A DNA stretch of 64,000 nt, taken from positions 543,745 through 607,744 of IMG/VR virus record IMGVR_UViG_3300046665_000548; one strand, written 5' to 3'. This stretch comes from a virus. Below the pieces are notes generated by a model. The model was not told the DNA's origin. It ran no database searches and saw only the letters and a program-made list of their open reading frames with translations. Below are positions 4,181 through 64,000 of the stretch, in pieces; positions within the stretch are counted from its first letter, which is position 1; the number at the start of each line of letters is the position of its first letter. The translations under genes were made by a program, and so were the position numbers.

Positions 4181-4204
4181 CTCCCCACCGCTGCCGGTGG
4201 GGAG
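4181..4204 (+). terminator. Hairpin after the 251-aa gene
   Basis: Perfect ten-base stem CTCCCCACCG/CGGTGGGGAG with a four-base loop, 14 bases after the stop codon. No T-run follows, so it may be a factor-dependent or imperfect terminator. Confidence 0.55.
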
Positions 4205-4236
4205 TAAACTGCGTACTGCGGGTTATCCTGACGCGA

Positions 4237-4265
4237 CTCCGAGGGCATATATTGTGCCCTCGGAG
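4237..4265 (+). promoter_or_regulatory. Leader hairpin upstream of the outer-membrane protein gene
   Basis: An 11-base perfect inverted repeat (CTCCGAGGGCA / TGCCCTCGGAG) around a seven-base AT-rich loop, 36 bases before the ATG at 4302. No T-run follows. Could be a transcript-stabilising or regulatory leader structure. Confidence 0.45.
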
Positions 4266-4301
4266 GCGTGCCATGGGGACCGTCACAAAAATGGAGTTAC
4301 C

Positions 4302-31348: not shown

Positions 31349-32628
31349 TGGCAACCTTTACTCGCGACCGCCTTGAACAAATTCTGATAGACGCCGCTAA
31401 ACCATCGGCAGCTAACGTTTTTACTCGACTGTACGTCGAAAGTGCTCGCGCGGCGGCCGATGCAAGTGATGCCCGTTTGGCTTCGAGCGGAACGCTCGGT
31501 CCAGTCGATGGCATGATTATCTCTGTAAAGGATAATACGCCTATCGCCGGAGAGGCCACGATGAGCGGTGGCATCTTCGCTTCTGAAATCGAGGTGGCCG
31601 ATGAACTGGAAATCGTAAAACTGCGCGGGGCGGGCGCAATTATCATTGGTAAAACGTCAATGACAGAGTTCGGCATGGACCCAATTGGGATTAAAGCGAG
31701 AGCAATCCCGTTAAATGCCGTTGATCCTTTGCGCGTCACGGGAGGTTCTACAAGTGGAGGATCAGTTTCGGTCGCGCTAAATCTGTGCGACTCAGCTATT
31801 GGTACTGATACGCTTGGGTCCAACCGTATTCCTGCGGCGTGGCAAAATCTCGTTGGGATGGCGACTACTAATGGACGGCTACCTCGATATTCTCGGCAAT
31901 TGCTAAGCTATACATTTGGTGTAGTTGGAAATATGGCAAGGGATGTCGCTACTGTTGCGAACGTGGATGCGGTAATGGCCAACATAACACCAACGCTAGT
32001 GACACCTCCGATTAACACTATCAGGATTGGGATCGCCCGTGGTCTTCCATTTTCCTCTATGGTGGGAGCAATTGCCATCGCAATTGAGGATGCCGTATCC
32101 CGTCTTTCAGTAGCGGGCGCGACCGTGACTGATATGAGCATCGACCCTTTTATGGGCGACGATGTTCTGAATGCGTTTGGCGCAATCGTCCGATCTGAGG
32201 CCGCTTCTCAGCATCGACAGTTGCTGGCAGATCGACCGAATGACTATTTGCCTTACACGAGAGACAGCCTTGCTCTTGGTTTGAACGTGCTAGGAACAAC
32301 CTATATTGAGGCTCAGCGATATAGGCAGCAAATACGTCGAGCCATGCAGGGGTTGTTTCAATCCTACGACGTGTTGCTTATTCCTACAGTACGATTTTAC
32401 GCGCCGCCTCTTCAGGATTTATTGTCGAATGACGACCTGTTCCTCGTCAATGCTAGACGTTCGCAGTATGATTTCTACGTGACCAGTTTTTGCAATCTTC
32501 CGGCGATAACTATTCCGCTTCCAGGTCTGCCATCACCGGCAGGTCTCATGTTGATTGCGAAGACCAACAACGATAGGGCTCTACTTGGAATTGCTGCCGC
32601 AGTCGAAAATCTAATCCGGAACGCCTAA
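31348..32628 (+). CDS. Amidase-signature family protein
   Basis: 426 residues. The Ser-cisSer-Lys triad is present: K61 in 'SVKDN', S134 in 'GGSTSGGS' and the nucleophile S158 in 'GTDTLGSNRIPA'. The family consensus D-T-G-G-S has a Leu for the first Gly. Members hydrolyse amides (GatA, fatty-acid amide hydrolases and others). The position after the PAAR and structural genes suggests either a virion enzyme or a metabolic add-on. Could in principle relate to the GatB-tail protein, but the genes are 10 kb apart. Confidence 0.8.
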   Translation: MATFTRDRLEQILIDAAKPSAANVFTRLYVESARAAADASDARLASSGTLGPVDGMIISVKDNTPIAGEATMSGGIFASEIEVADELEIVKLRGAGAIIIGKTSMTEFGMDPIGIKARAIPLNAVDPLRVTGGSTSGGSVSVALNLCDSAIGTDTLGSNRIPAAWQNLVGMATTNGRLPRYSRQLLSYTFGVVGNMARDVATVANVDAVMANITPTLVTPPINTIRIGIARGLPFSSMVGAIAIAIEDAVSRLSVAGATVTDMSIDPFMGDDVLNAFGAIVRSEAASQHRQLLADRPNDYLPYTRDSLALGLNVLGTTYIEAQRYRQQIRRAMQGLFQSYDVLLIPTVRFYAPPLQDLLSNDDLFLVNARRSQYDFYVTSFCNLPAITIPLPGLPSPAGLMLIAKTNNDRALLGIAAAVENLIRNA

Positions 32629-32630
32629 CG

Positions 32631-32660
32631 TTGACACGAACCAATTTTCGTAGTAAATAG
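32631..32660 (+). promoter_or_regulatory. Promoter region of the tmRNA gene
   Basis: TTGACA at 32631 with GTAAATAG at 32653-32660 sixteen bases on: a -35/-10 pair that overlaps a late-type TAAATA element. RNA would begin near 32667-32673. Confidence 0.45.
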
Positions 32661-32672
32661 TCTCTGCTTATG

Positions 32673-32726
32673 ACCGAGACGGAATAAGTTCTTGACACGG
32701 CGGTTCGAATCCGCCCACCTCCACCA
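32673..32726 (+). ncRNA. ssrA: tmRNA acceptor piece (permuted two-piece tmRNA)
   Basis: Contains a T-arm with stem GGCGG/CCGCC and loop TTCGAAT, then the acceptor strand CACCTCC, discriminator A and an encoded CCA at 32724-32726. CACCTCC pairs with GGGGGTG at 32831-32837, including a G-U at the third pair as needed for alanyl-tRNA synthetase. The 3' half comes before the 5' half, as in alphaproteobacterial two-piece tmRNA. The exact 5' end is not determined. Confidence 0.88.
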
Positions 32727-32830
32727 TAAGCACTTTCTCTCGATTGACCCCGTAGCGCAAGCCAGTGGCGGTTGAGAAGGGTGCAACCCGGCTACTCTCC
32801 TCGCAAGGGAATGTTGAGAGTGCTTTTGAT
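32727..32830 (+). other. Intervening segment of the permuted tmRNA precursor
   Basis: 104 bases between the encoded CCA and the 5' end of the coding piece. Removed in two-piece tmRNA maturation in known cases. No other feature is visible. Confidence 0.6.
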
Positions 32831-33022
32831 GGGGGTGACTTGGGATCGACCAGGAACCGTAAAGGGATCGCGAGGCAACGGTAAGAAACGACCGACAATC
32901 TGTTCATTTTTTAACTGCAAACGATAACGTTGCGGTTTCTGAGTACGCACTCGCTGCGTAACTGAGATTGGCCAGGGGGATGGCTCGAAACAGAACCGGG
33001 AGCTACGGCTTCCGGCCCCACC
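32831..33022 (+). ncRNA. ssrA: tmRNA coding piece with tag ANDNVAVSEYALAA
   Basis: Begins GGGGGTGACTTGGGATCGAC, like the 5' end of bacterial tmRNA. The tag frame at 32917-32961 encodes Ala-Asn-Asp-Asn-Val-Ala-Val-Ser-Glu-Tyr-Ala-Leu-Ala-Ala then TAA; the AND-N start and ALAA end are typical degradation tags. A hairpin with a UACG tetraloop (CCGGGAGC/GGCTTCCGG, ~32996-33015) lies near the 3' end and may be a structural helix or terminator. Together with the acceptor piece it would release stalled ribosomes. Confidence 0.9.
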
Positions 33023-33075
33023 TTTTCTCCTTAAATTTGACTTGTCGTCTAGTATTGCGTAAATAAACGCAACAG

Positions 33076-34730: not shown

Positions 34731-35387
34731 ATGAAAGCCATTGTCGTTCCGCCGCATTTCGATCCAAGCCCGTTGCCGCAACCGTCGTCTCTGAACCCTC
34801 GATTAATGGTCGTGGATACAAACGGGACCTCGGTCTTTCCGCCTTTGTACGCGCAGCCTATTGGATATAACCCCGCGCCTCCCGTGTTAATGGCCCCGCC
34901 ACGCAACCCATTGGTCGATTACTACACACTGTATTCTCACCAGGACGTGCAAACCCTAAGCAGCTATAATTCTTGGTACCCTAACTCGGTTATTCTAACC
35001 GCCTATGACCTAGTAAATAGAGTGTGGGAGTTGCGAACAGTGATCGATTGGATCAATGCCAAATGCGACGACTTTGTTCTCATCCAAAGAACAAACGACG
35101 CGTCATCTTGGTTAGTAGTCTTCGTATCGGTCGATGATCACAACGCATTTAAGCTCTGGTACGGGACACAGACAGTCGCTCGCTTCAATGTCCAAGTATC
35201 AACTCCCGCGCGCGAGAAAGAATATAATGAGTGGATGCAGACCAATATTCGCGGTCGTATCCGAACCGCATCGTCTATCAACAAGGATGGACTAAAATCA
35301 CTAACCGTCTCGGTTGATGACAGGAATGAAGAGCTTCTGTTCAAACTAAGATGGGTTGGTGTTCCTGACGAGGAAGAAGAGGCTTAA
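34731..35387 (+). CDS. Protein with two copies of the FKLxW motif (218 aa)
   Basis: N-terminal ~75 residues are Pro-rich and probably disordered. The C-terminal domain contains the recurring motif twice: 'WLVVFVSVDDHNAFKLWYG' (~125-143) and 'LTVSVDDRNEELLFKLRWVG' (~190-210). It is the largest member of this small-protein family in the window. Function unknown. Confidence 0.6.
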   Translation: MKAIVVPPHFDPSPLPQPSSLNPRLMVVDTNGTSVFPPLYAQPIGYNPAPPVLMAPPRNPLVDYYTLYSHQDVQTLSSYNSWYPNSVILTAYDLVNRVWELRTVIDWINAKCDDFVLIQRTNDASSWLVVFVSVDDHNAFKLWYGTQTVARFNVQVSTPAREKEYNEWMQTNIRGRIRTASSINKDGLKSLTVSVDDRNEELLFKLRWVGVPDEEEEA

Positions 35388-35430: not shown

Positions 35431-35640
35431 GTGGCAGTAACTTCTTATGACCTGAATAACGTTCACGCTGTATTTGGCCGTGGTCAGCATATGGGTGCAT
35501 ACCTGAGCACGGGCTATTACTATGCTCCTTCTGGGAATTCTGCCACTTTCCCTCCTAACAATATCGGCATGAACGTCTTTATCAATACCGCCCCAACCAA
35601 CGAATGGGCGTGTGATTGTGCCAACTGTTCGATGAAGTAA
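35431..35640 (+). CDS. 69-residue peptide with Cys-rich end, first gene of the oxygenase locus
   Basis: GTG start after a good GGGGAG site; stop abuts the next start (TAAATG). Residues 1-45 are polar and Gly/Tyr/Asn-rich; the end has 'NEWACDCANCSMK' with three Cys in six residues. There is no signal peptide. Position at the head of a run of peptide-modifying-type enzymes (2OG oxygenases, radical SAM/SPASM) makes it a candidate modified peptide, but it could equally be an unrelated small protein. Confidence 0.6.
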   Translation: MAVTSYDLNNVHAVFGRGQHMGAYLSTGYYYAPSGNSATFPPNNIGMNVFINTAPTNEWACDCANCSMK

Positions 35641-36357
35641 ATGCGTGAAATCGATAATCCTCTCTGGCACAGTCTAGTCCCAATTCCGCATCTCGAACTG
35701 GGTTTGCAGTTTGATGTCGCCCGTCTTCAACAAGAATATCGCGCAGTATCAGAAGATACGTGGGTCTCTTACAAGACCAGATATCCCCGTGTGGCCAAGG
35801 GTCTGGCCGAAGCATGGTGGGGCGCATCTCTGCTTTCATACAATCGAAGCCTTCATGATGATATGGAGGAAAATCTAGAATCAATGAAAGCGTACCCGAC
35901 TGGGTTGGCAGAACAAATGCCATACGCGATGGATTGTCTCGAAAAGATTGGAGCATGGAGTTCGCTGACTGGCGAAGGCATTCGCACACGTGTTTTGATC
36001 ATCAAAGCCGGAAAGGGGATCACTTGGCACAGCCATATCCTGGACGGTGACAAGAACGAAATTCCGTATGCAATCGTGCACATCCCCATCATTTGCCCAC
36101 CAGAGGTTCGTTATAGCGTAATCAGCCTGATGGATTTTCGCTTCGGTGACCATGAGAAAACTCCCCTTAAGGTTCACACTAAGCACTACGCCGAAGGACA
36201 CGCCCAGGCTTTCAACTACGTTCATTATCACAACGTCTTCAATGACGGAGATACTGACCGCGTAACGTTAATGGCGTATGTTGATCTCCGTCAGCAAAAA
36301 GTAAAGTCTCTCTTCGAGAGAGCAATCAAAAACTATAACGGTCCAATTATCGATTAG
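35641..36357 (+). CDS. 2OG/Fe(II) oxygenase-like, Asp/Asn hydroxylase type (C1)
   Basis: 238 residues. 'AGKGITWHSHILDG' (H130/H132) fits the first iron-ligand region of aspartyl/asparaginyl hydroxylase-like enzymes, and 'YVHYHNVFNDGDTDRVTLMAYVDL' holds the distal His (H195/H197) and the 2-oxoglutarate-binding Arg207. The first ligand motif is H-x-H rather than the usual H-x-(D/E), so activity is uncertain. Directly coupled to the peptide gene. Confidence 0.6.
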   Translation: MREIDNPLWHSLVPIPHLELGLQFDVARLQQEYRAVSEDTWVSYKTRYPRVAKGLAEAWWGASLLSYNRSLHDDMEENLESMKAYPTGLAEQMPYAMDCLEKIGAWSSLTGEGIRTRVLIIKAGKGITWHSHILDGDKNEIPYAIVHIPIICPPEVRYSVISLMDFRFGDHEKTPLKVHTKHYAEGHAQAFNYVHYHNVFNDGDTDRVTLMAYVDLRQQKVKSLFERAIKNYNGPIID

Positions 36358-36365
36358 GAGCTATC

Positions 36366-36668
36366 GTGAAATTTAGTTACAAGATCACCGATCTCAAAGC
36401 CACCGGTCTAGCAATCGTTGAGTATCGAAATGTCGAGCTAGGTGTAGTGGTCAAGCATATCGTTCTCCACTATGACAAGACTCCAGAGATCGTGATCCAA
36501 GAGATCAAGAGCAACTTCCCTGCCATCGACTTTTACATGCGCAAACAGGCATTGGAAAAGCCCATCATTGACAATATTCCGTGGGAAGGCGAGTTCGAAA
36601 CCGAGATTGAACCAAGCTGGTTATCCGCCACGGTCGAAACCGTAGAAGCCATTAAGCCGGAAGACTGA
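36366..36668 (+). CDS. Hypothetical protein (100 aa)
   Basis: Preceded by AGGAGCTATC. Small alpha/beta protein with 'VVKHIVLHYDKTPEIVIQEIKSNFPAIDFY'; a Glu-rich end. One base before the next gene. Could be a partner or recognition protein for the surrounding enzymes, but nothing is recognised. Confidence 0.6.
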   Translation: MKFSYKITDLKATGLAIVEYRNVELGVVVKHIVLHYDKTPEIVIQEIKSNFPAIDFYMRKQALEKPIIDNIPWEGEFETEIEPSWLSATVETVEAIKPED

Positions 36669-36669
36669 T

Positions 36670-37230
36670 GTGAAAAAGAGAATCCTTCGCTTCGATAGTT
36701 TTTTGGTCTGGACCTTCAATATGAATAAGGGCGATCTGAAAACTACAAGCTGGGGTGAGTTGAACGGTGGTCTTGAACCGACTACCGATATGGTCAAACA
36801 AGCAACGCATAAAGGCGTGGCTGTGGAGGACGTTCAGCCTCTGCTTTGCTGTACTTTGTTTGTCCGAGGAAGCTTCCTCCTACACAAATCAAACAAGCCT
36901 CCGGTGCTGCTTCACGCCGGAGAAGCCGGTTATGGCTTTACTAATTCAGAAAAGAGCGCTCCTGTAACAATCGAGGCCATGGAAGACGATTGTGAATATC
37001 ACTGTATGGTTCCTAGATCGAAGGAGCCGATATTTTGGCAGCGCAAAGGCTTCGACGCTGCACAGGAATTATTAGAACTTCCTCTGAGAGAAAATCAGTT
37101 CATATATTTGGCGAAAGGCCAAGCGTCTTGTGGATCATCGGTGATCAGTGATCGTTCAATGTTCGACCTAAGTGGTCGGTCGGCCACTGTGAAATTGGAA
37201 GATGCCATAGGCGTCATCCTATGGAGATAG
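36670..37230 (+). CDS. Hypothetical, possibly cupin-like protein (186 aa)
   Basis: GTG start one base after the previous stop. Strand-rich with His, Glu and Cys spread through 'LLHKSNKPPVLLHAGEAGYGF' and 'DDCEYHCMVPRSKEP', a pattern that would suit a cupin or similar metal-binding barrel, though the motif is not clear. Four bases before the desaturase. Confidence 0.45.
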   Translation: MKKRILRFDSFLVWTFNMNKGDLKTTSWGELNGGLEPTTDMVKQATHKGVAVEDVQPLLCCTLFVRGSFLLHKSNKPPVLLHAGEAGYGFTNSEKSAPVTIEAMEDDCEYHCMVPRSKEPIFWQRKGFDAAQELLELPLRENQFIYLAKGQASCGSSVISDRSMFDLSGRSATVKLEDAIGVILWR

Positions 37231-37234
37231 CGGT

Positions 37235-37957
37235 TTGAAGTTTAAACCTGCGCAATACGTCTATATGATCTATCTCGGTTTTGTGCTGTGGGGAATCACT
37301 CTGTACGCCTTGATAGTTGGGGGTCTAAATCCAGCTTGGCTTCTGCTCTCACTGGTCGGATATGTGTTCTTTGCCGTAGTCAATACGGCCGGATATCATC
37401 GGTTGTTCTGTCATCGTGCGTACAAGACCTCTCTTTTCTGGGAGAATACTTTATTGTATTTTGGAGCTTGCACCGGATATGGTAGTACACTGCAATGGTG
37501 CGTTGCTCACAATGAGCATCATGCACATGCGGATACAAACGAAGACCCTCATCAATTCAAAAACTTTCTCGATGTGATTACTCCCAACTACATCAACAAC
37601 CCTTACACTGAACGACGTTGGATTAGGCCACTATTACGCAATCGCTGGCATTTGTATGTCCATCGTTGGTATTGGCTTTTCCCCCTCAGTTTGGCTCTAC
37701 TGCTTTATTTTGTTGGTGATGAAAAGCTTGTCATTTACGCCTATCTCCTACCCGTCACGACGTGGTTATTTGTCGGCACAGTTTTCAACTGGTTGGCTCA
37801 TCGAGACGGCGACATAACCGACAGCCAGTTTTGGGCATACGTAATGGCTGGGGAAGGGTGGCATGGCAAGCATCATCGATCTCCTGGTGAATGGAAATTA
37901 CATGACAGTGCGCTATCCGATCTCGGCGGGGCATTGATTAAAATTATTCGGAGATAA
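37235..37957 (+). CDS. Membrane fatty-acid desaturase
   Basis: 240 residues. TTG start after GGAGATAGCGG. All three His boxes of acyl desaturases are present: H55-R-L-F-C-H60, H92-N-E-H-H96 and H210-G-K-H-H214. Hydrophobic helices at ~8-28, ~32-52, ~148-168 and ~170-188 place it in the inner membrane. Typical members put a cis double bond into acyl-CoA or lipid acyl chains. Shorter than bacterial delta-9 desaturases (~300+). Its place in the oxygenase locus suggests lipid or acyl-chain chemistry there. Confidence 0.88.
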   Translation: MKFKPAQYVYMIYLGFVLWGITLYALIVGGLNPAWLLLSLVGYVFFAVVNTAGYHRLFCHRAYKTSLFWENTLLYFGACTGYGSTLQWCVAHNEHHAHADTNEDPHQFKNFLDVITPNYINNPYTERRWIRPLLRNRWHLYVHRWYWLFPLSLALLLYFVGDEKLVIYAYLLPVTTWLFVGTVFNWLAHRDGDITDSQFWAYVMAGEGWHGKHHRSPGEWKLHDSALSDLGGALIKIIRR

Positions 37958-37959
37958 AA

Positions 37960-38649
37960 GTGCCCATTAGATTGATGACAGAAACCGATATTCCTCTCCT
38001 TGAAGCTGTGATCCGCAGCCATACTACTATGCAAGGCATGGACATCACCAACGTCATGCACGATGGTAAGGATCAGTTCTACTACACTATCAAGCATGTC
38101 ACTGATCGTCTCCCGAAAGAGCCACTTGGTAATTGGAACGTTTTCGGAAGCTTTGATGATGATGACAATCTCCTAGCGTTCCAGTGTTCGTGTAGGTTTT
38201 CAGCATCTTGCTTTTACATTGGTTTGAGCATGAGCAATTCGTATCTTCGTCCTCTTCCAAAGACCTATGGTGCGGATTGGCCTGACGCGATCATTGACCT
38301 CACAAATTTTGCAATCGATCTCTATGCCCTAGAGGGACGCAATCACGCGTTCATCATGCACGCCAAGGTTAATAATCCAGATTGGAAGCCACTGTGGAAA
38401 GCGCCCGGTCTTGCCTTCCTCGAATGGGAAAGAAAAATTTTCATGGATATCGATTACGGTGTGCCAATTCCAGAAGACGGCACATGGTTTTTAACTATCT
38501 ATGAAACCGTGCCCCTCTCGTCCCAGACACTGGTCATGTATACGGTGCCAAGTTCGAAGTTTGACAACAATGTTATTCCAGTTCAAGCCGATCCTAATTT
38601 AGAAGAATGGATAGCAAATCATCCGGAGATGGAGAATTTCAATGCATGA
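37960..38649 (+). CDS. GNAT-like acyltransferase (229 aa)
   Basis: GTG start two bases after the desaturase stop. 'PIRLMTETDIPLLEAVIRSH' opens like a GNAT domain, followed by 'FGSFDDDDNLLAFQCSCRF' as strands 2-3 and a helix near 'LTNFAIDLYALEGRN'. The acetyl-CoA loop (Q/R-x-x-G-x-G/A) is not clear, so activity is uncertain. Overlaps the radical SAM gene by eight bases. Confidence 0.5.
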   Translation: MPIRLMTETDIPLLEAVIRSHTTMQGMDITNVMHDGKDQFYYTIKHVTDRLPKEPLGNWNVFGSFDDDDNLLAFQCSCRFSASCFYIGLSMSNSYLRPLPKTYGADWPDAIIDLTNFAIDLYALEGRNHAFIMHAKVNNPDWKPLWKAPGLAFLEWERKIFMDIDYGVPIPEDGTWFLTIYETVPLSSQTLVMYTVPSSKFDNNVIPVQADPNLEEWIANHPEMENFNA

Positions 38650-39958
38650 GTTAGTTCTAGTAGAGCCACGCACCGGCCACGCGATGATTGCGAACTACGA
38701 TCCGCATACTTCAGAGCTTACAGATGAAAAAGGGTTTCCGTTACTGTCAGTAGACGTGTACGCGCATAACCTTGATGGCAAGTTTCCAAATTGGGCTGCC
38801 GTGGATTCATACTTTCCGACCAGTCCCAAGATGCCCGGAGTAAAACATTCAGCACCGCGTCGGTTGAAGATTCAACTTGGTCTCGGATGCAACATGAGTT
38901 GCCCTTACTGTCTGCAAAAGATGGAAGTTCCGAAGGCTGTCAAGGCCAAGCCTAGGGATGCCGTCGCGTTAGTTGAAAAACTCGATGCATATCTGACCTC
39001 AAAAGAAGAATTGACAAAGATTGAGTTCTGGGGTGGCGAGCCATTACTGTACTGGGAAAAGATCAAGTATCTCGTCCCGGTTCTCAGTGAGATGTTCCCC
39101 AATGCTCGATTTGGCATGGTGACCAATGGCACGCTGTTGACGACCGAAATTGTTGATTTTCTCAAAGAGTGGAATTTTGGCATCGCCATCAGTCACGATG
39201 GCCCAGGTCAACACATTCGCGGAGATGATCCGTTTGATGACTTTGATCAGTGCGAAGGCATTCAATATGCTTTTGAGCAGCTTCACCCCCGCTTCTCGTT
39301 CAATGCCGTGTTTACCCCATCAAACTGTAACGCGGTTGAAATCATCGATTGGTTTGGGGAACGTTTTCCTGGGGCTGCGGTGAATTTCGAGGGCGTAGTG
39401 CACAACTACGATCTTGGTGATAGCAACTCGTCGTTCACGCAAGAGCAATTAATGGTTTTCCATGAGCAGCTTTATACGCAGATACTCGATGGCTCGGCAC
39501 TCCGTTCTCCTAGTATTCGAGAGCAAGTGAAGAAAACGATTGATTCGATCATTCAACGCAGACCCAGCCGCATACTTGGCCAGGGTTGCCAGATGGATCG
39601 CCCAGATGAATTGGCGGTCGATCTTAGAGGTAACGTGATGACGTGTCAGAACACTGGATCAAAGGGCGAGCACAAGCTTGGCACTATAGACGATCTGCAT
39701 TCTGTACGATTGAACACCAGCTATCACTGGAGCCAGCGCAAAGAGTGCAAAGAGTGCCCGGTTTTGCAAATCTGTGCCGGTGCTTGCATGTATCAGGTTG
39801 GTGACAATTTTGTGAATTCATGCAATGCCGAGTTTCACTTTAGAAGTGCGTTCCTTCGCGTGGCAATCTTGCTTATGACCGGACGTGTGTTGGTCGGTTA
39901 TACGAAGCCGTTACTCCGTCCTAAGCTTGCTTCGGAGTTGGCGAATGAGGGTATCTGA
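38642..39958 (+). CDS. Radical SAM enzyme with SPASM domain
   Basis: 438 residues. The [4Fe-4S]-SAM motif is C83-x3-C87-x2-C90 ('GCNMSCPYC'), followed by 'EFWGGEPLLYWE' (GGE motif). The C-terminal region has 'GQGCQMD', 'VMTCQNTG' and 'CKECPVLQICAGACMYQVGDNFVNSC', a SPASM-type cluster-binding set. SPASM enzymes mostly modify peptides or proteins (sactipeptide, PQQ, anaerobic sulfatase maturation). With a small Cys peptide and many 2OG oxygenases around it, peptide modification is the leading hypothesis. Overlaps both neighbours. Confidence 0.88.
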   Translation: MHELVLVEPRTGHAMIANYDPHTSELTDEKGFPLLSVDVYAHNLDGKFPNWAAVDSYFPTSPKMPGVKHSAPRRLKIQLGLGCNMSCPYCLQKMEVPKAVKAKPRDAVALVEKLDAYLTSKEELTKIEFWGGEPLLYWEKIKYLVPVLSEMFPNARFGMVTNGTLLTTEIVDFLKEWNFGIAISHDGPGQHIRGDDPFDDFDQCEGIQYAFEQLHPRFSFNAVFTPSNCNAVEIIDWFGERFPGAAVNFEGVVHNYDLGDSNSSFTQEQLMVFHEQLYTQILDGSALRSPSIREQVKKTIDSIIQRRPSRILGQGCQMDRPDELAVDLRGNVMTCQNTGSKGEHKLGTIDDLHSVRLNTSYHWSQRKECKECPVLQICAGACMYQVGDNFVNSCNAEFHFRSAFLRVAILLMTGRVLVGYTKPLLRPKLASELANEGI

Positions 39959-40799
39959 GGTACCTAAGGAGCTACCTGTATTTCAGACACTCGCAAAGCA
40001 CTATCATTTTTCGGAGGCGGTAGCTGACGTTTCAACAAAGATAAGCGGGCTGCAAGCAATCCCGCTCATCAACCAAACCGCGCTGGCAAACACCGTTATT
40101 GGGTTGGTTGAGGAGTACGGTCTGTTTTCTCCTCGTAATAGCGACGGCAATGGCTCGGGTTACGATAGCCTGTCCTTGGTGCAAAATCCAAACGTTGAGG
40201 GTATGTGGCAAAACGCAACGCTTGGCTCCGAGAACTTGAAGGCGAGTGAATTCTATTGGGGTAACAGTTCGACCTTTTCCAAGGTTGGTGATCTTAAGAA
40301 TAGTTACTATGATAGCTATGGTTTCTCGCGGCTCACTCCGGCAGGCATTGCTCTGCAATCGCATTTAGAGTTCAAGCGAAATCTCATTCGTAGTCGGATC
40401 AGTGCTATCCGTGCGGATACGAAAGCGACGACAAGCTTTACTTTCGGTTGGCATAAGGATGAGCCTGTTTTCGAGAACTTTCGATTCAATATTCCGATCA
40501 CTACGTCGCCTGAGTATCTGCTTCAGATTGAGAAAGAGCGCGAAAATCCCTTCTTCTATAGCCGAACGATGGAGACTACTCATCTGGCCATTGGCAGCGG
40601 CTATTTCTGGGATACGTCACTGCCTCATCGGGTGTACAGTTCTTCTCCTGGTAAGATCGACAGGATAAACATCGTTCTTGGATTCAGTCCTTGGTTTGAT
40701 TACAATCCGGAAAACGATGAATGGCTGCCTAACGAGTTCTTCGGCAAGAAGCACCCATTCGATATGATGTACGATGGTGATATTCTCGCGCAAAAATGA
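39945..40799 (+). CDS. 2OG/Fe(II) oxygenase, Asp/Asn hydroxylase type (C2)
   Basis: 284 residues; the ATG at 39945 has GGAG eight bases upstream, overlapping the radical SAM end by 14 bases. Iron ligands H170-K-D172 in 'FGWHKDEP' and H228 in 'TSLPHRV', with R240 in 'DRINIVLGF' to hold 2-oxoglutarate. Belongs to the same broad type as the enzyme at 35641 but with a complete H-x-D...H...R set. Overlaps the next gene by four bases. Confidence 0.75.
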   Translation: MRVSEVPKELPVFQTLAKHYHFSEAVADVSTKISGLQAIPLINQTALANTVIGLVEEYGLFSPRNSDGNGSGYDSLSLVQNPNVEGMWQNATLGSENLKASEFYWGNSSTFSKVGDLKNSYYDSYGFSRLTPAGIALQSHLEFKRNLIRSRISAIRADTKATTSFTFGWHKDEPVFENFRFNIPITTSPEYLLQIEKERENPFFYSRTMETTHLAIGSGYFWDTSLPHRVYSSSPGKIDRINIVLGFSPWFDYNPENDEWLPNEFFGKKHPFDMMYDGDILAQK

Positions 40800-41494
40800 A
40801 CATGCAGCCTCTCGATATCCTCTACACTCCTCTTGATGTGCCCGACGTACCTGATGTCCCGTACAGTGATATCAAGGATTGGGCCGCGTCTGCATCGTTC
40901 AACGCCAAAGAAGATAGCTCTAAGATTTTTGGAAAAGACTATCCATGGCTCTTGGGCTATGCTCGTTACGACAGCACTTGGATTCAAGGTTTTGATACCC
41001 GCTTCAAAGTTCTTTGTGACTACGTACTAGATACGTTTCAACTTCAAGAGCGATGGTTGCAGGGTTTGGTGTTTCTTCCTGTTCGTCAAGACTTTATCGG
41101 CACAGGTTTCTGGCACTCCGATCATGACACTATTGGTCTGCGGTTCTATCTGGAAAACGATACGCCTGAAAATGCAATGCTTATGCGTTCATTCACGGAG
41201 CCATATACGGAGCGGCCGACGTGGGACATTCCCCATGATGGAGTTGAGCCGCGCATCAAGACGGTAACTCATCGATTGCAGATGCCAAAACTCAAGCAGG
41301 TGTTCTACATTAACAATGCGCGAGCAGTTCATGCAGTGCACGTCGAGAAACTGAATTCGAAGCGGGTCGCGGCAATCATATCGGTCAACAAGGCAACGCT
41401 AACGCGGATGCCCAAGTATGTGCGAGAGCTTATCATCAATTCGGCCGAGAATCATCCACAAGAACGACTGCTATGGGAGCCCGCGCATGACTGA
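40796..41494 (+). CDS. 2OG/Fe(II) oxygenase, group A paralogue 1
   Basis: 232 residues. Ligands H107-S-D109 in 'GFWHSDHD', distal H179 or H182 in 'ARAVHAVHVE' and R190 in 'NSKRVAAIIS'. Begins with 'LDILYTPLD', shared with the genes at 41487 and 42785. With the first of these it shares long identical runs such as 'GLRFYLENDTPENAMLM', so recent tandem duplication is likely. Substrate unknown. Confidence 0.75.
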   Translation: MNMQPLDILYTPLDVPDVPDVPYSDIKDWAASASFNAKEDSSKIFGKDYPWLLGYARYDSTWIQGFDTRFKVLCDYVLDTFQLQERWLQGLVFLPVRQDFIGTGFWHSDHDTIGLRFYLENDTPENAMLMRSFTEPYTERPTWDIPHDGVEPRIKTVTHRLQMPKLKQVFYINNARAVHAVHVEKLNSKRVAAIISVNKATLTRMPKYVRELIINSAENHPQERLLWEPAHD

Positions 41495-42173
41495 GCCTTG
41501 TGATATCCTCTATACGCCTCTCGATACGTCTGAGCCGCCTGACATCAACCACGCCGCCTTCATGGCTTGGGCCGAGTCTACCAAACTTCAGCGCGCCGAC
41601 AAAGACGGCTCGCATCGCCCCGGCTATCCTTGGAAAATAGCATACGGTCGTATTGATTGTGACTGGAAGTTCGATTTCAATAATCTCTTTCCCGAGATCA
41701 CCTCCTATGTCTTGGATACGTTTCAACTGCTAGAGCGACAGGTAGATACGATTTGTTTTCTTCCCGTTCGAAACGACTTCATCGGTACTGGATTTTGGCA
41801 TACCGACCGAGATCATCTCGGGCTTCGTTTCTATCTTGAGAATGATACTCCAGAAAACGCAATGCTGATGCGGCCATTGACCGAGCCGTTCAATACCCGC
41901 CAAGATTTCCAATATCCTGATGATGGGATCGCGCCGTTCATTCAGCCAATAGAATACGAATTGAGTATGCCTAAGCTACGGCAGACGTTCTTCATCAATA
42001 CGGCTCGATCTGTTCATGCAGTAAAGGTCACTAAACTCAACAGCGTGCGTATCGCAACTCTAGTAACGGTTAAAGGTGCAAACCTATTGCGAATGCCGAA
42101 ATACATCCGCAACCTTATAGTGGATTCCGCAGCCAAACATCCGGAGGCACTGTTGTGGACCCCACCAGTCTAA
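41487..42173 (+). CDS. 2OG/Fe(II) oxygenase, group A paralogue 2
   Basis: 228 residues; start at 41487 in an eight-base overlap with the previous gene (a longer open frame is ignored). H105-T-D107 in 'GFWHTDRD', H177 in 'ARSVHAVKV', R188 in 'NSVRIATLV'. Near-duplicate of paralogue 1 with different central loop (~35-60), which may set substrate choice. Overlaps the next gene by 19 bases. Confidence 0.75.
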   Translation: MTEPCDILYTPLDTSEPPDINHAAFMAWAESTKLQRADKDGSHRPGYPWKIAYGRIDCDWKFDFNNLFPEITSYVLDTFQLLERQVDTICFLPVRNDFIGTGFWHTDRDHLGLRFYLENDTPENAMLMRPLTEPFNTRQDFQYPDDGIAPFIQPIEYELSMPKLRQTFFINTARSVHAVKVTKLNSVRIATLVTVKGANLLRMPKYIRNLIVDSAAKHPEALLWTPPV

Positions 42174-42784
42174 TACTTGAGAGAATTATCCTTACGGCCG
42201 AACAGTGCCAGGATATTATCTCCTCCATCAATACGCGTTCACACATAGCTAGTCGCATTGGAACTCATTTTGAGAATGGAGATTACAAGGACATCATTGA
42301 TCGCAATCGTCGCCTGAGTTTTGATGGAACCTCTAAAAACCCCGAGTTGATACTCAATCCGCTCGAAGGCTTCCTAGACACCTTAGAGGAATTCTACAAC
42401 GTAAAGGTGGAGACGTGGGAGAAGCCCTTGATCCGTATCTACCCTGTTGGGGGCCTTTTTGAAGTTCATAGCGACGGCATTGGGATGCGAAAAAACAAGA
42501 CTTTCTACAAATGGAAAGATCGAGACTACAGTCTTATATTATTTCTGAGCGATGACTTTGATGGAGGAGAACTTTTCTTTCCGAATCTCGGGTACACGGT
42601 CAAACCTGAAGCGGGCAAGATGGTGTGTTTTCCTGCTGATAAAAGCGAGTTCGATCACGGTGTAAATCCGGTGACGCGTGGCACCCGAATTCAGATCATC
42701 TCGTTCTTGACCTGCGTGGGTACCACGAGAGAACACAACGAAGCATTGCAGGGTAAAAAGAACCCTTTCTTCAAAAGGACCTAA
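42155..42784 (+). CDS. 2OG/Fe(II) oxygenase, prolyl-4-hydroxylase type (B1)
   Basis: 209 residues. P4H-like pattern: 'YPVGGLFEVHSDG' with H105-S-D107, 'SLILFLSDDFDGGELFFPN' (jelly-roll strands), H168 in 'EFDHGV' and R178 in 'RGTRIQ'. First of four group B paralogues (also 43530, 44159, 44797). P4H-type enzymes hydroxylate Pro or other residues, free amino acids or nucleic-acid-linked groups. Abuts the next start. Confidence 0.8.
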   Translation: MDPTSLILERIILTAEQCQDIISSINTRSHIASRIGTHFENGDYKDIIDRNRRLSFDGTSKNPELILNPLEGFLDTLEEFYNVKVETWEKPLIRIYPVGGLFEVHSDGIGMRKNKTFYKWKDRDYSLILFLSDDFDGGELFFPNLGYTVKPEAGKMVCFPADKSEFDHGVNPVTRGTRIQIISFLTCVGTTREHNEALQGKKNPFFKRT

Positions 42785-43519
42785 ATGTCTCCACTCGATA
42801 TTATCTACACTCCTTTGATTACCAATAATCCTCCGCCTACTGGGCAGTACGAAAAAATATGCGAGTGGGTCGAAATCCAGCGGGCAGAGATAATCAAATC
42901 AGGTAAGAGGGCTTGGCATGTCTCGTTCGCTCGGATGGATGGAAAATGGCTTGGTGACTTTGAACAGCAGTTTCCGGAACTAGTTGATTACTGCCTGAAG
43001 GTCTACGATCTGAAGACGGACCAACTGGCATCGGTCATGTTGGGCGTAATTCAACCAACCCACTTCGGTCCAGGCTATTGGCATCGTGATCTCGATCACC
43101 CAGGACTGCGTTTCTATCTGGAGATCGATGATACCGTTAACACGCTCCAGGTGAAACTGACCAAAGAACCCTATGACGTTATGCCTGATAGCGTTGTGCC
43201 AACCAACGGTAAGGCTCCATGGCTTCAAGATGAGGTCTACGCGGCCAAGATGATAAAGCCGCGCCAGGGGTTCTTTCTCAACAGCATCCGCGCGATCCAC
43301 CAAACGAATATCAATATCCCAAATCCTCGACGTATCACGGTCACGATTGGGGTGAAGGACATCAACATGAAGCGGTTGTACAAGCCTCTCAATGATCTGA
43401 TCATGCAATCGACGGAAGAGTATAGCGATTGCGTCATTCGGTGGACACCGCAAGGAAGTAAAATTAACGCACAATTTCTCACCACTGATGGCCGCGATCT
43501 GGGCCTAGGCGGCAAGTAG
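42785..43519 (+). CDS. 2OG/Fe(II) oxygenase, group A paralogue 3
   Basis: 244 residues starting directly after the previous stop. Opens 'SPLDIIYTPLI' and carries H100-R-D102 in 'GYWHRDLDHPGLRFYLE', with a distal 'RAIHQTN' and 'RRITVTIG' for the last His and Arg. More diverged than paralogues 1 and 2. Sits between two group B genes, so the two groups are interleaved. Confidence 0.72.
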   Translation: MSPLDIIYTPLITNNPPPTGQYEKICEWVEIQRAEIIKSGKRAWHVSFARMDGKWLGDFEQQFPELVDYCLKVYDLKTDQLASVMLGVIQPTHFGPGYWHRDLDHPGLRFYLEIDDTVNTLQVKLTKEPYDVMPDSVVPTNGKAPWLQDEVYAAKMIKPRQGFFLNSIRAIHQTNINIPNPRRITVTIGVKDINMKRLYKPLNDLIMQSTEEYSDCVIRWTPQGSKINAQFLTTDGRDLGLGGK

Positions 43520-43529
43520 GAGAACGGCT

Positions 43530-44162
43530 TTGCGACTACCTCGTGATAAAATTCTCGTTAAGGACATCTTGACGGTTGAAGAATGCAAAGACCTGATTGA
43601 GAAGATGGACAAGAGTTGCACGAAGACATCTCCAGCGCTGTTGGCCGCCTCGAATACAGTGGTGATGGATTTTACCAACCGGTTCACCTATCAATCGTCT
43701 ATTCCTCACGAACCTGACTGCTATCCTTTACTGGAAAGAGCGGCAAAGGCTATCGATGAATTTTTCTCAGTGGAAATCGAACATTGGGAGACACCTTCGT
43801 TCAAGATATATCCTGTTGGTGGCCACTTCTCTCTCCACGCGGACACGATATTGGATAGCAATGGAAGAGGTATAAAGTTCCAGGACCGCGACTATTCGGC
43901 TATCTTGTTTCTCAACGACGATTACGAAGGCGGCGAACTAGTTTTTCCAGATTTGAAGGTTACGGTGTCTGCGTCTGTTGGCCGACTAGTATCATTTCCG
44001 TGCACGCGAGCTTACATGCATAAGGTCGAAAAAGTTACTGCGGGAACGCGTTATCAAATTCTGACTTTCTTGAAGGCGAAAGGCACGAAGATCGAACACG
44101 ATCCAGCAGTTTACGGCAGGCTCTATCCTAGGGTGGATCGCAAGACCTGGGAGATCAGATGA
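43530..44162 (+). CDS. 2OG/Fe(II) oxygenase, prolyl-4-hydroxylase type (B2)
   Basis: 210 residues. TTG start ten bases after a stop, with AGGAGAA as ribosome-binding site. H103-A-D105 in 'FSLHADTI', 'SAILFLNDDYEGGELVFPDL', H164 in 'YMHKVE' and R174 in 'GTRYQIL'. Overlaps the next start by four bases. Confidence 0.8.
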   Translation: MRLPRDKILVKDILTVEECKDLIEKMDKSCTKTSPALLAASNTVVMDFTNRFTYQSSIPHEPDCYPLLERAAKAIDEFFSVEIEHWETPSFKIYPVGGHFSLHADTILDSNGRGIKFQDRDYSAILFLNDDYEGGELVFPDLKVTVSASVGRLVSFPCTRAYMHKVEKVTAGTRYQILTFLKAKGTKIEHDPAVYGRLYPRVDRKTWEIR

Positions 44163-44800
44163 TCGAGCCAGAAAATGACCGTAAGATGATCTACATCACT
44201 GATCTGATCACCCGAGATGAGTGCAATCGGATTATCGATACCCTTGATAAGTCATCGACTGTTCTTGCCGCACTGAATCCTGTCAATGGCGATTTTTCAG
44301 TAGACAAATCGAAGCGATATGCGTTTGACACTGACACGAATGATGATCAGGTCAAAGACCGGATCATGCTGACTGCTTGCCCCAAGATCGAAGACTACTT
44401 CGATTGCGAGATTGAATGGTGGGAAGAACCTCGTTTCAAGATTTATCGCAAGGGTTGTCATTTTGGGTTGCACGCCGACGCTGTACATTTGCACGAAGGC
44501 AAGTCGATCAAATACTGCGACCGCGATTTTTCGTTCATCCTCTTCCTAAATGATAATTACGAAGGCGGGAACCTGTCCTTTCCCGAATTCAATCTAACGG
44601 TGCCGCCAAAGGCGGGCCGCATGGTCGTGTTTCCACCAGATGCAAGGTTTATGCACCGCGTGCTGCCTGTGACCCAAGGGGAGCGCTTCCAGATGCTTGG
44701 ATGGCTACGCGCTAAGGATACGGCTCAAGAACATAACCCGGCTCTCCACGGCCCTTTTCTGCCTCGTGTGGACCGCAACACCTTGGAGAGACTGACATGA
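44159..44800 (+). CDS. 2OG/Fe(II) oxygenase, prolyl-4-hydroxylase type (B3)
   Basis: 213 residues. H105-A-D107 in 'FGLHADAV', 'SFILFLNDNYEGGNLSFPEF', H166 in 'FMHRVLP' and R176 in 'GERFQML'. Coupled to both neighbours by four-base overlaps. Shares 'RVDRxTxE' at its end with B2. Confidence 0.8.
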   Translation: MIEPENDRKMIYITDLITRDECNRIIDTLDKSSTVLAALNPVNGDFSVDKSKRYAFDTDTNDDQVKDRIMLTACPKIEDYFDCEIEWWEEPRFKIYRKGCHFGLHADAVHLHEGKSIKYCDRDFSFILFLNDNYEGGNLSFPEFNLTVPPKAGRMVVFPPDARFMHRVLPVTQGERFQMLGWLRAKDTAQEHNPALHGPFLPRVDRNTLERLT

Positions 44801-45465
44801 AGATGCCGCGCGAATTGATCTACATCAATCCAGACTTCATTGATCCTGCGATCTGCGATCACATTAGAAACTGCATGGACCCTACATCGACCGATCTGGC
44901 GATTAAAAACCACCTTGCATCCAACAACCAAGTTCATCGTATCACTGATAAAAGCCAGCAGTACGTCTATAATACCACTTGCAGCGATATGCTGGCTGTG
45001 CACACGCAAATGCATCGTGCCAGCTTCGAACTAGACAAGTTTTACGGCAAGACCGTCGAGAAGTGGGAGGTGCCGATGGTCCGCATCTATCCAACCGGTG
45101 GCCATTTTGGTTTGCACGTCGATGCGATTCTCGAAGAGGATGGCAAAAAGATCGCATATATGGATCGCGAATACACGGTCATCATGTGGATGAACGATGA
45201 TTACGAAGGCGGCGTGCTGCGTTTCCCTGAATTGAAGGTCGAAGTGCCGCCGAAGATCGGCCAGATGGTGATGTTCCCGGCCGACCGCCGCTTTTTGCAC
45301 GAGGTGACCCAGGTCACCAAAGGTCTACGCTATCAGGTCATGACCTGGATGGCGGTGGAAGGCGGCGTTCGCAACCATGACATCGCCAAACACGGGGCGA
45401 TGGTGTCGCAAATCTGGAGAAAGCAGTGGGAAACCGAGCGGGGAGAAAACGCTCAACCCTTGTAA
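44797..45465 (+). CDS. 2OG/Fe(II) oxygenase, prolyl-4-hydroxylase type (B4)
   Basis: 222 residues. H107-V-D109 in 'FGLHVDAI', 'TVIMWMNDDYEGGVLRFPEL', H168 in 'FLHEVT' and R178 in 'GLRYQVM'. Last plus-strand gene of the locus; its 3' part is GC-richer than the other members. Convergent with the minus-strand block that follows. Confidence 0.8.
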   Translation: MKMPRELIYINPDFIDPAICDHIRNCMDPTSTDLAIKNHLASNNQVHRITDKSQQYVYNTTCSDMLAVHTQMHRASFELDKFYGKTVEKWEVPMVRIYPTGGHFGLHVDAILEEDGKKIAYMDREYTVIMWMNDDYEGGVLRFPELKVEVPPKIGQMVMFPADRRFLHEVTQVTKGLRYQVMTWMAVEGGVRNHDIAKHGAMVSQIWRKQWETERGENAQPL

Positions 45466-46747: not shown

Positions 46748-47110
46748 TTACCAGCTTGACGAATAATAAACCCGATATCCGGCCAAAAGCGCGCGCGTCG
46801 CTAGAGTCAAGAATTCCTGATCGTATTCGAAATCCTTGGGGTCGGATTTTCCGAAAAAGAAACCCTCCGTATAGGGTAACTGCCGTTTTTCAACGGCCTC
46901 GGCAAGCTCCGCGATATCTTGGACTGTAAGTTCAACATAAACGCTCGAATGAAATTCTTCGGGGTCAGTAACGCCTGACTTGCGCGCGTATAGCTGTTGC
47001 ATCCAACCATGCATGTTGGGATGCTTGCGCCACTCGTAGATTTCCTCTCCCTTCCAATGGTCCTCGGGGATAGCCCCAAGGACCTGGAACGCCGTCATAT
47101 CAAGACCCAT
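46748..47110 (-). CDS. Conserved hypothetical protein, 'MGLDM...WRKH' family (120 aa)
   Basis: Start at 47110. The pattern 'MGLDMTAFQ ... YEWRKHPNMHGWMQQLY ... GFFFGKSDP' is a widespread phage/bacterial family of unknown function (Trp-Arg-Lys-His, His-Gly-Trp and Gly-Phe-Phe-Phe-Gly signatures). Overlaps the end of the synthetase-like gene by 11 bases. Confidence 0.7.
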   Translation of the reverse strand: MGLDMTAFQVLGAIPEDHWKGEEIYEWRKHPNMHGWMQQLYARKSGVTDPEEFHSSVYVELTVQDIAELAEAVEKRQLPYTEGFFFGKSDPKDFEYDQEFLTLATRALLAGYRVYYSSSW

Positions 47111-47858
47111 TGCCAGACCCTCTCTCCGACCCACGATCCCAGCCCTCCACCGCGACAAGACGATCTAGGCCCACCGCGACCTCCAACACGATACGTCGCT
47201 TTTGATTCGGGTCAGAAGGCTGCGGGAAGTCGGTGCGCGTCGAAATCGAACACATTTCCTTCCAATCGCCGTTGAACGGAACCTCGACATCGCGGGTCTC
47301 CTGCGAGTATGAGGGTAGACGATCACTGGCCACGATTCGGTACTCCGGCGTGCCGGTGATCTTCCGAATAGCCTCGCCTACGGCTGGCTCAACCGCGCCC
47401 CGGTAGTCGGCCATCGTGCCTTCCGTGTACACGCACTGCCATTCGGCCTGATAGAACTCATTGAGCCGCAGCGTGCCCCAGCGAGCGCCATCCTGCGTTT
47501 CGCGGCGGAAGCTCTTACCGACCTGCCAGACACAGAGCGGCAGCTTGAAGCGCGTGGTCTTCAAGATGTGGTCCGCATACAGATAGCTCGAAGCAGTGGT
47601 CTCGGCGCGCATGGCAGCCGCGTCTTCTCCCAGCTTGGCTTGGAGCAGGAAGATGTCATCCTCTGTATATGCTTCGGAAATGAACTTGCGCGGCGTCAGA
47701 AGAGGACCCTCGACGCGATGGAAAGCCCATCCCTGGTTCATAGCCAGCAAAGCACCGGAAATCGCCTGATGCAAGGTCTGCACGGCCTGATCCCGAAGCA
47801 GGATTTCCCGCTCGGTCCAGAAACGAAGGCCACCAAAGCCGTATAAAGCCTCGCTCAT
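47100..47858 (-). CDS. GlyRS-like class II aminoacyl-tRNA synthetase core
   Basis: 252 residues. Motif 2 is seen in 'VGKSFRRETQDGARWGTLRLNEFYQAEW' (~113-140), closest to glycyl-tRNA synthetase, and motif 3 in 'VLEVAVGLDRLVAV' (~225-238). There is no anticodon-binding domain, so it is about half the size of a real GlyRS. Could be a tRNA-modifying or amino-acid-activating paralogue. Overlaps its upstream gene by four bases and stands two genes after a threonyl-tRNA synthetase. Confidence 0.65.
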   Translation of the reverse strand: MSEALYGFGGLRFWTEREILLRDQAVQTLHQAISGALLAMNQGWAFHRVEGPLLTPRKFISEAYTEDDIFLLQAKLGEDAAAMRAETTASSYLYADHILKTTRFKLPLCVWQVGKSFRRETQDGARWGTLRLNEFYQAEWQCVYTEGTMADYRGAVEPAVGEAIRKITGTPEYRIVASDRLPSYSQETRDVEVPFNGDWKEMCSISTRTDFPQPSDPNQKRRIVLEVAVGLDRLVAVEGWDRGSERGSGNGS

Positions 47859-48308: not shown

Positions 48309-49775
48309 TTAAAGCCTGCATTCTCCGACGCTCGGTCGTTTGCACTCCTGATCGATTAGGTTTTGCGCCTCCGCGAACGGCATGACCATAACGTGCTGAT
48401 AATCGGTGTTTCGATATGAGCCGTCTCTCAAACGACGAACGGTTACGGAAGAGGATTCTACCTCGCGTCCGCCGACCACAAGAATGAATGGAACACGCGC
48501 CGTAGAATGTTCCTTGATCTTCTGCTTGAAATTCTCGTCGCGATTGTCCACAGAACCGCGCACTCCAGCGCGGGATAGCATCAACTGGATCGAGTCAGCA
48601 TATTCTTGCTGTTCTGGACTGACCGGAATGACAACATACTGAGCCGGGCTCAGCCACGGCGGCAGCCGTCCTTCGTAATGCTCTAGCAGGATGCCGATGA
48701 AACGCTCCATCGATCCCAAGATGGCACGATGAAGCATCACGGGAGGCTTGCGAGAACCATCCGTATCGGTGAATTCGGCACCCAGGTTCTTGGGGAGAAC
48801 CATATCAAGCTGGAGAGTGCCGCACTGCCACACGCGGTCGCGCAGATCGCGCAGCGCGAACTCAAGCTTCGGACCGTAGAACGCTCCCTCGCCCGGATAG
48901 ACTTCGTATTCGAGACCGGCCGCTTTCACGGCGTCGGACAACGCCTGCTCGGCCCGATCCCAATCAGCATCCGAACCGGCGCGAACATCCGGCCGAGTCG
49001 AAAAGCCAATCTTGATCTCGTCAAAACCAAAGTCCTTATAGACGCTGCTAAGCAGCGCAATGAATTTGCGCGTCTCGTCCATCACCTGATCTTCGGTGCA
49101 GAAGATATGGGCGTCATCCTGAGTGAACTGACGAACTCGCATGATGCCATGCAGAGCACCGGACGGCTCGTTGCGATGGCAGCAACCGAACTCGGCCATA
49201 CGCCATGGAAGCTGGCGATAGCTCACGGTCTTCGAGTTGAAAATTTGAACATGACAAGGACAGTTCATCGGCTTGAGACCAAGCTGATGCTCGTCGTCGT
49301 TGATTCGAAACGTGTCCATCATCATCTGAATGACGTTGGCTGCCTCGTGCTGAATTGGCGGCGTCGGGAAATTCCGCACGAATTCATTCGGATTATCGGG
49401 TTCTTCTCCGCCGCCAGTCGCGCCGAGACCATCCGTGATCGGGATACGATATTGTCCCTGGAGCCTATCCACGAGGTTGCTGAACATCGGATTGAGCGGT
49501 GGAGCCTCGGCATCGACGGCCAAGAACATGTTCTTGCGAAACTTGTCCCAATGGCCAGATTGCTCCCACAACGTTTTGCTGACTAGTTGCGGCGTGCGAA
49601 CCTCTACATATCCCTCGCCGCGAAGCCTGTCGCGAATGTAGGTCTCGATGGTGCGGAATAGCGTGAAGCCGTGTGGATGCCAGAATACGGACCCGGCCGC
49701 TTCTTCCTGGATGTGGAAAAGATCGAGTTCGACGCCAACGCGGCGGTGATCATAGGGAAGGAGTTCTTCGGACAC
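48309..49775 (-). CDS. thrS: Threonyl-tRNA synthetase lacking N-terminal domains
   Basis: 488 residues beginning at the catalytic domain: the TGS and editing domains of full-length ThrRS (~640) are absent. 'DHRRVGVELDLFHI' is the ThrRS start of the core; zinc ligands occur in 'MNCPCHVQIF', 'DDAHIFC' and 'MLHRAILGSMERF'; motif 2 is 'RNEPSGALHGIMRVRQF'; the anticodon-binding domain is at ~385-480. An extra ~40-residue insertion lies at ~105-145. GTG start at 49775. Would charge tRNA-Thr with less proofreading, or evade an inhibitor. Confidence 0.9.
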   Translation of the reverse strand: MSEELLPYDHRRVGVELDLFHIQEEAAGSVFWHPHGFTLFRTIETYIRDRLRGEGYVEVRTPQLVSKTLWEQSGHWDKFRKNMFLAVDAEAPPLNPMFSNLVDRLQGQYRIPITDGLGATGGGEEPDNPNEFVRNFPTPPIQHEAANVIQMMMDTFRINDDEHQLGLKPMNCPCHVQIFNSKTVSYRQLPWRMAEFGCCHRNEPSGALHGIMRVRQFTQDDAHIFCTEDQVMDETRKFIALLSSVYKDFGFDEIKIGFSTRPDVRAGSDADWDRAEQALSDAVKAAGLEYEVYPGEGAFYGPKLEFALRDLRDRVWQCGTLQLDMVLPKNLGAEFTDTDGSRKPPVMLHRAILGSMERFIGILLEHYEGRLPPWLSPAQYVVIPVSPEQQEYADSIQLMLSRAGVRGSVDNRDENFKQKIKEHSTARVPFILVVGGREVESSSVTVRRLRDGSYRNTDYQHVMVMPFAEAQNLIDQECKRPSVGECRL

Positions 49776-63865: not shown

Positions 63866-64000
63866 TATATTCACCCCATGTACTTGTAGCTGCACCTCGC
63901 CCCTTTCATTGGTCTCGCTTCTGCGGGCGACCAGCTATATACGTATAACGCTCGTGATCGGTTAATTCCGACGCGGGCGTGTTTTGTTTTTAATCGTACT

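Follow-up and report, generated by a model that had tools for sequence, protein, structure and literature searches.

Organization of the gene cluster

We analyzed a 64,000-nt stretch of DNA (the window), the last 64 kb of the 607,744-bp giant-phage record IMGVR_UViG_3300046665_000548, with a focus on a gene cluster at window positions 35431–45465. The cluster consists of fifteen genes on one strand, with every gap no longer than 10 nt and with 9 of the 14 gene junctions touching or overlapping (Table 1). It codes for a 69-residue peptide with a cysteine-rich (CxC) end, a radical S-adenosylmethionine (SAM)/SPASM enzyme, nine 2-oxoglutarate (2OG)/Fe(II) oxygenases, a membrane desaturase and a GNAT-like protein. 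An initial annotation of the same DNA had placed all these genes correctly and had proposed that they form a pathway acting on a peptide, a virion protein or a lipid. Comparison with related loci from hundreds of phages indicates that the cluster is probably an elaborate version of a widespread system that chemically modifies cysteine-rich tips of tail fibres. Genes are named here by their start positions.

Table 1. Genes of the cluster and the gene directly upstream (window positions; aa, amino acids)
Feature	Position	Strand	Remarks
218-aa protein	34731..35387	+	43 nt 5' of peptide gene; possibly in operon
69-aa peptide	35431..35640	+	Proposed substrate, putative small tail-tip CxC protein; C-terminal end NEWACDCANCSMK
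2OG oxygenase C35641, Asp/Asn (Asp/Arg) hydroxylase family	35641..36357	+	PF05118
100-aa protein p36366	36366..36668	+	Syntenic relative in L011
186-aa protein p36670	36670..37230	+	Syntenic relative in L011; no Pfam match
Membrane fatty-acid-desaturase-like protein	37235..37957	+	PF00487, three His boxes
GNAT-like protein, weak assignment	37960..38649	+	Position only
Radical SAM/SPASM peptide maturase (predicted)	38642..39958	+	PF04055, phrog_1802
2OG oxygenase C39945, Asp/Asn-hydroxylase-like	39945..40799	+	AlphaFold/Foldseek
2OG oxygenase, group A	40796..41494	+	54% identity to 41487
2OG oxygenase, group A, the modelled one	41487..42173	+	AlphaFold/Foldseek
2OG oxygenase, group B, prolyl 4-hydroxylase (P4H)-like	42155..42784	+	PF13640, 43.4 bits vs cut-off 27
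2OG oxygenase, group A	42785..43519	+	34% identity to paralogue 41487
2OG oxygenase, group B	43530..44162	+	PF13640, 45.6 bits
2OG oxygenase, group B	44159..44800	+	PF13640, 60.4 bits
2OG oxygenase, group B	44797..45465	+	PF13640, 52.6 bits

The radical SAM enzyme and its linkage to CxC proteins

The assignment of 38642 as a radical SAM/SPASM enzyme, already made in the initial annotation, was borne out by a PF04055 score above the cut-off, a match to phrog_1802, the CxxxCxxC motif at residues 83–90 and the full SPASM cysteine pattern (CX9-15GX4C-CX2CX5CX3C-C); the cysteines were invariant in an alignment of 11 relatives. Among NCBIfam models, the best match was PapB (NF047865; residues 76–384, 85.1 bits against a membership cut-off of 340), followed by QhpD (TIGR03906; 82.3 bits against 453). 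These two and CcpM, the nearest models, describe maturases that cross-link cysteines or act on Cys-rich peptides. PapB, a ranthipeptide maturase, is also a radical SAM/SPASM enzyme and makes Cys-Asp/Glu thioethers on a peptide (PMC9413430). Its substrate is a free peptide, in contrast to the phage tail C-terminus proposed here. QhpD (QhpD/PeaB), the maturase of quinohemoprotein amine dehydrogenase, makes Cys cross-links to acidic residues of a protein subunit, but its target is a subunit of a bacterial enzyme. Both maturases bond the sulphur of Cys to carbons of side chains. The best plasmid matches of the window enzyme were annotated as QhpD/PeaB as well.

The closest relatives in isolated phages were found in Achromobacter phages JWF and 2-1 (36–37% identity). 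An alignment of the window and JWF enzymes retrieved 410 relatives in viral contigs, 80 of which were kept, and the eleven-sequence alignment retrieved 122 relatives in bacterial genomes. The latter were mostly from alpha- and betaproteobacteria and are probably prophages. No matches were obtained in single-protein scans of viral contigs with 38642 or group A, in a scan with the group A alignment, in tblastn searches of isolated phages with group A and 39945, or in a pattern-limited scan of bacterial genomes with 39945.

The neighborhoods of these enzymes were then compared. After clustering at 90% identity and requiring at least 3.6 kb 5' of the enzyme, 97 non-redundant loci were available, and 78 of them coded for a same-strand upstream protein with an (N)CxCxCxC motif. 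CxC tracts occurred in 64 of 389 open reading frames (ORFs) of the upstream zone versus 9 of 1127 elsewhere. The reverse search, a scan of the collection for NCNCNCNC that was blind to the enzyme, gave at least 80 loci. In 29 viral loci NCNCNCNC was in frame and at least 4.5 kb of downstream sequence was present; among the matches listed, 28 of these 29 were followed, on the same strand, by a gene of this radical SAM family, and the median distance from NCNCNCNC to the radical SAM gene was 1.1 kb (all 50 pairs listed). The forward and reverse sets share some contigs. As a control, we examined 44 viral loci with a relative of 39945 but without this radical SAM enzyme and found no CxC tail protein; one chance CxC match, in a very short distant ORF common to L125 and L126, was discounted. 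A gene-encoded candidate substrate kept near a maturase across loci is the arrangement that characterizes ribosomally synthesized and post-translationally modified peptides (RiPPs), and it was seen in both directions of the search. Gene linkage of this kind strongly suggests that the radical SAM enzyme uses the CxC tail as its substrate. Of the targets considered in the initial annotation, a virion peptide is strongly supported by this two-way tie, whereas a lipid or a free natural product is not, with the desaturase leaving a lipid role possible.

Besides CxC proteins, a recurrent 296-aa protein family (F1) adjoined the radical SAM enzyme in 60 loci. Asparagine-synthase-like proteins were also seen near the enzyme in six loci, for example L018 (SGGIDS) and L031.

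CxC proteins and the 69-residue peptide

Tail-fibre matches in the PHROG database were found for 8 of 9 CxC proteins tested, two of which carried collagen repeats; this result concerns the tested proteins, a set that lies apart from the 69-aa peptide itself. The residue between two cysteines of the tract was mostly N, A or D. The motif formed the last few residues of the protein or was located directly before either a Hint domain (PF05203 and relatives) or an S74-like sequence. Long internal tracts nearly always preceded Hint-like sequence (L006, L008, L015, L017, L027, L033, L047 and L233–L236), and in L036 the tract preceded SDGRLKENVE, an S74 chaperone-like start. Hint and S74 domains self-cleave, so the CxC tract would come to lie at the mature C-terminus in all three architectures. 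In phages JWF and 2-1, the phrog_1802 enzyme is encoded two genes after a tail-fibre-like protein that has NCNCDCNCNC followed by a Hint domain; these phages differ from the window in that no 2OG/desaturase cassette is annotated beside the enzyme, whose own annotation says no more than radical SAM protein. Some loci (L010, L013, L017, L020 and L027) had two or three small CxC paralogues. A tail protein at 1110–1904 of L036 contained a (KC)n run with about 25 cysteines directly before S74-type chaperone sequence.

The 69-aa peptide of the window ends with WACDCANCSMK, the terminal residue being Lys. It (MAVTSYDLNN...FPPNNIGMNVFINT...ACDCANC) resembled a CxC protein of L085 (...SDLYNLNYFRG...FSSGQINMSDFYST...CDCACDC), and this likeness persisted without the Cys tail, its score being reached by 1 of 1000 shuffles. 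The likeness to the L011 CxC protein (112 aa, CACACDCLCK) was less secure, as 94 of 1000 shuffles reached the score without the tail. In L011, genes for a tail fibre, the CxC protein, relatives of p36366 and p36670, a GNAT-like protein and the radical SAM enzyme follow each other in the same order as in the window. Judged by sequence and gene order, the 69-aa peptide belongs to the CxC protein set. A search of phages with the peptide gave matches only at E ≥ 2, mostly Enterococcus tail proteins, which we attribute to chance, and inspection of some sites with further CxC C-termini in this genome revealed no convincing second substrate.

The 2OG oxygenases and their cassette

All nine proteins encoded at 35641–45465 that had been annotated as 2OG oxygenases were confirmed as such, with the double-stranded beta-helix fold, by Pfam (35641 and group B) or by AlphaFold/Foldseek (group A and 39945). 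Group A (three copies) and group B (four copies) are paralogue sets with 30–54% identity. All group B members (42155, 43530, 44159 and 44797) scored above the PF13640 cut-off, and 35641 matched PF05118 at 27.8 bits (cut-off 22.6). The initial annotation stated that the nine carry, or nearly carry, the HxD...H...R set. The set was found in eight, and the "nearly" applies to 35641, which is non-canonical and has no plain HxD motif. Because 40796, 41487, 42785 and 39945 had no match in Pfam or PDB sequence searches, their structures were approached by prediction, with models built from 21 aligned sequences for 41487 and 27 for 39945. The 41487 model had a predicted local distance difference test (pLDDT) score of 89.7 and matched PolD, AspH and SnoN in Foldseek; the 39945 model (pLDDT 92.9) matched a nucleoside-antibiotic hydroxylase (7v4f, TMt 0.76), AspH and proline hydroxylases. 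HxD...H...R was invariant in the 21 group A and 27 39945 relatives. Thus, the absence of folds or iron ligands, envisaged in the initial annotation as a possible outcome, was not what the models of 39945 and 41487 gave.

Within the 607-kb record, PF13640 matches were confined to the cluster, which excludes a chance grouping; three other, scattered matches to PF05118 were present. Group B also matched phrog_61 and cyanophage proteins. These phage 2OG oxygenases differ from the cluster in occupying one to three places per record among the matches listed, and we know of no linkage between phrog_61 oxygenases and a radical SAM enzyme or CxC proteins. A nucleic-acid-modifying (Tet/JBP) role, prompted by weak PF12851 matches, was dropped, since these were far below the cut-off and the genes were linked to tail proteins.

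The other members of the cassette were less uniform. The desaturase 37235, annotated from its three His boxes (HRLFCH, HNEHH and HGKHH), scored above the PF00487 cut-off at 35.6 bits. The GNAT label of 37960 found no profile support in Pfam. A protein of similar size holds its place in L011, and in L110 and L117 the cassette has GNAT-like proteins nearby, with no sequence match between 37960 and these counterparts.

A combination of 39945, group A, one or two desaturases and the radical SAM enzyme was linked in 13 other loci on 11 phage contigs (L039, L040, L046, L109–L113, L115–L117, L122 and L129; L114 ends before the radical SAM gene). The scattered occurrence that would have spoken against the initial annotation was therefore not observed. 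About 0.9 kb 5' of 39945, each of the 11 cassette loci of L109–L129 encoded a Lys-ended CxC protein. A terminal Lys accompanied 39945 in 7 of 8 loci versus 3 of 62 (Fisher p 8e-7; non-redundant loci, shared descent uncorrected). This feature hints that the 39945 cassette may deal with the last residues of the CxC tail. Other radical SAM loci carried different 2OG families (PF13759-like and PF13640), and their recurrence beside the enzyme ties oxygenases in general to the system.

The density of 2OG genes, described in the initial annotation as unfamiliar, has parallels: L119, L124 and L126, which look like marine T4-like contigs, hold comparable arrays of 2OG-like genes. These three contigs and L145, of similar appearance, have long arrays with desaturases, SGGxDS (asparagine-synthase-like) proteins, B12 radical SAM and other radical SAM enzymes and without CxC tails, and are perhaps a sister system. 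In the relevant parts of published reports, pelagimyophages carry radical SAM cassettes in the host-recognition (tail-fibre) region (PMC7029224) and a TARA T4-like genome has 12 radical SAM genes (PMC5332604). These parts differ from our case in that they describe no substrate, CxC motif or Cys-rich fibre tail, or 2OG partnership.

Proposed function and alternative explanations

We consider it likely that the cluster is a RiPP-like virion-modification operon acting on a Cys-rich tail-tip C-terminus. The 69-aa protein would be a small tail-tip protein whose N-terminal part anchors it in the virion, and whose C-terminus (ACDCANCSMK) serves as the substrate. The radical SAM/SPASM enzyme would act on this CxC tail, most likely (our guess) by forming thioether cross-links between Cys and neighboring residues; such links are expected because PapB and QhpD, its nearest cellular relatives, make them. 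The 2OG oxygenases may afterwards hydroxylate or otherwise oxidize positions in this segment, the terminal Lys perhaps included, with each copy of groups A and B taking one site. The desaturase and the GNAT-like protein would belong to the same tailoring cassette and could yield an acylated, desaturated Lys. The expected product is a tail-fibre or tail-spike tip that has been hardened or decorated chemically and that serves in host contact.

Several observations weigh against this interpretation. The peptide tail has three cysteines only and no long NCNCNC run, and the gene just 5' of it (34731) is not recognizable as a tail fibre. No CxC protein was found in 19 of the 97 radical SAM loci, including Variovorax and Ramlibacter prophages. 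The NCBIfam scores of 38642 are far below membership cut-offs, and the scans rely on short patterns and mechanically called ORFs. Only two other radical SAM loci had group B and none had 35641, so the place of these oxygenases in the pathway is deduced from operon position.

One alternative is that the CxC tail forms a tip that binds metal or iron-sulphur and that the radical SAM enzyme makes no cross-links but some other change, for example converting Cys to formylglycine or acting on a companion such as F1. Alternating cysteines in (N/A/D)C repeats would put all thiols on one face of a strand, which suits metal binding, and the PDB relatives include anaerobic sulfatase maturases. However, the sulfatase-type CxPxR motif was absent from the CxC tails seen, the PapB and QhpD profiles outscored the sulfatase maturase profile, and F1, for all its frequency beside the enzyme, was not found in many CxC-bearing loci. 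We regard this alternative as unlikely. It is rather improbable that lipids of the host or phage, surface polysaccharide or nucleotides are the targets of the 2OG and desaturase genes, with the radical SAM/CxC pair being no more than a neighbor in the operon. Such a target would suit the membrane desaturase and the GNAT-like protein, and 39945 was found with a desaturase in contigs L118–L127 that lack CxC proteins and this radical SAM enzyme; but in the cassette loci the 2OG and desaturase genes are located between the CxC and radical SAM genes and track the terminal Lys of the CxC sequence. A free RiPP natural product, with the peptide acting outside the virion as a bacteriocin-like or signalling molecule after export or release, is very unlikely: the small stand-alone Cys-ended ORF near a SPASM enzyme resembles RiPP clusters and adjoins no fibre gene here, but no transporter or leader peptidase was recognized in the cluster, and relatives of the peptide are located among or inside tail-fibre genes.

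Under the preferred reading, modification of a tail-tip C-terminus, a broader view can be offered tentatively. A new class of virion chemistry may exist in which this radical SAM/SPASM family and interchangeable 2OG cassettes cross-link, by radical chemistry, and further oxidize the C-terminal tail-fibre tips of many phages, mainly of alpha- and betaproteobacteria; here, about ten iron enzymes would converge on one tip peptide, perhaps ending in an acylated, desaturated lysine. We found no description of such a system in the open-access literature and no NCBIfam model for it. Tail-fibre tips decide which bacterium a phage infects. If the proposal is true, host-range prediction from sequence overlooks a layer, unassigned peptides should be present in virion mass spectra, and hundreds of phages offer new peptide-modifying enzymes. 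Phage radical SAM genes are usually counted as auxiliary metabolism; with the CxC motif they gain a concrete, testable candidate substrate.

Genome context and additional observations

The record encodes a terminase, and a tail-sheath family match was weak and below the cut-off; ribonucleotide reductase and tail-fibre-like genes are present in the window. A 146-bp direct repeat (window 63855–64000 versus record 1–146) is near-identical, with two mismatches, and suggests a complete, circularly assembled genome of 607.6 kb. The 34731 protein had no Pfam match, and none of the radical SAM loci retrieved contained a relative. A transfer-messenger RNA gene of the permuted alphaproteobacterial type (32627–33052, +) suggests an alphaproteobacterial host. 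Also observed was a beta-barrel outer-membrane-like protein with a signal peptide (4197–5114, +), Hyphomicrobiales-like by eye. An adenylosuccinate-synthetase-like protein (27783–28991, +), assigned by eye, might, as a PurZ-type enzyme, supply the phage DNA with modified adenine. On the opposite strand, a class II aminoacyl-tRNA synthetase with an anticodon-binding domain (48309–49775, −) is adjoined by a protein (47100–47858, −) that, by eye, may be another synthetase-like protein.

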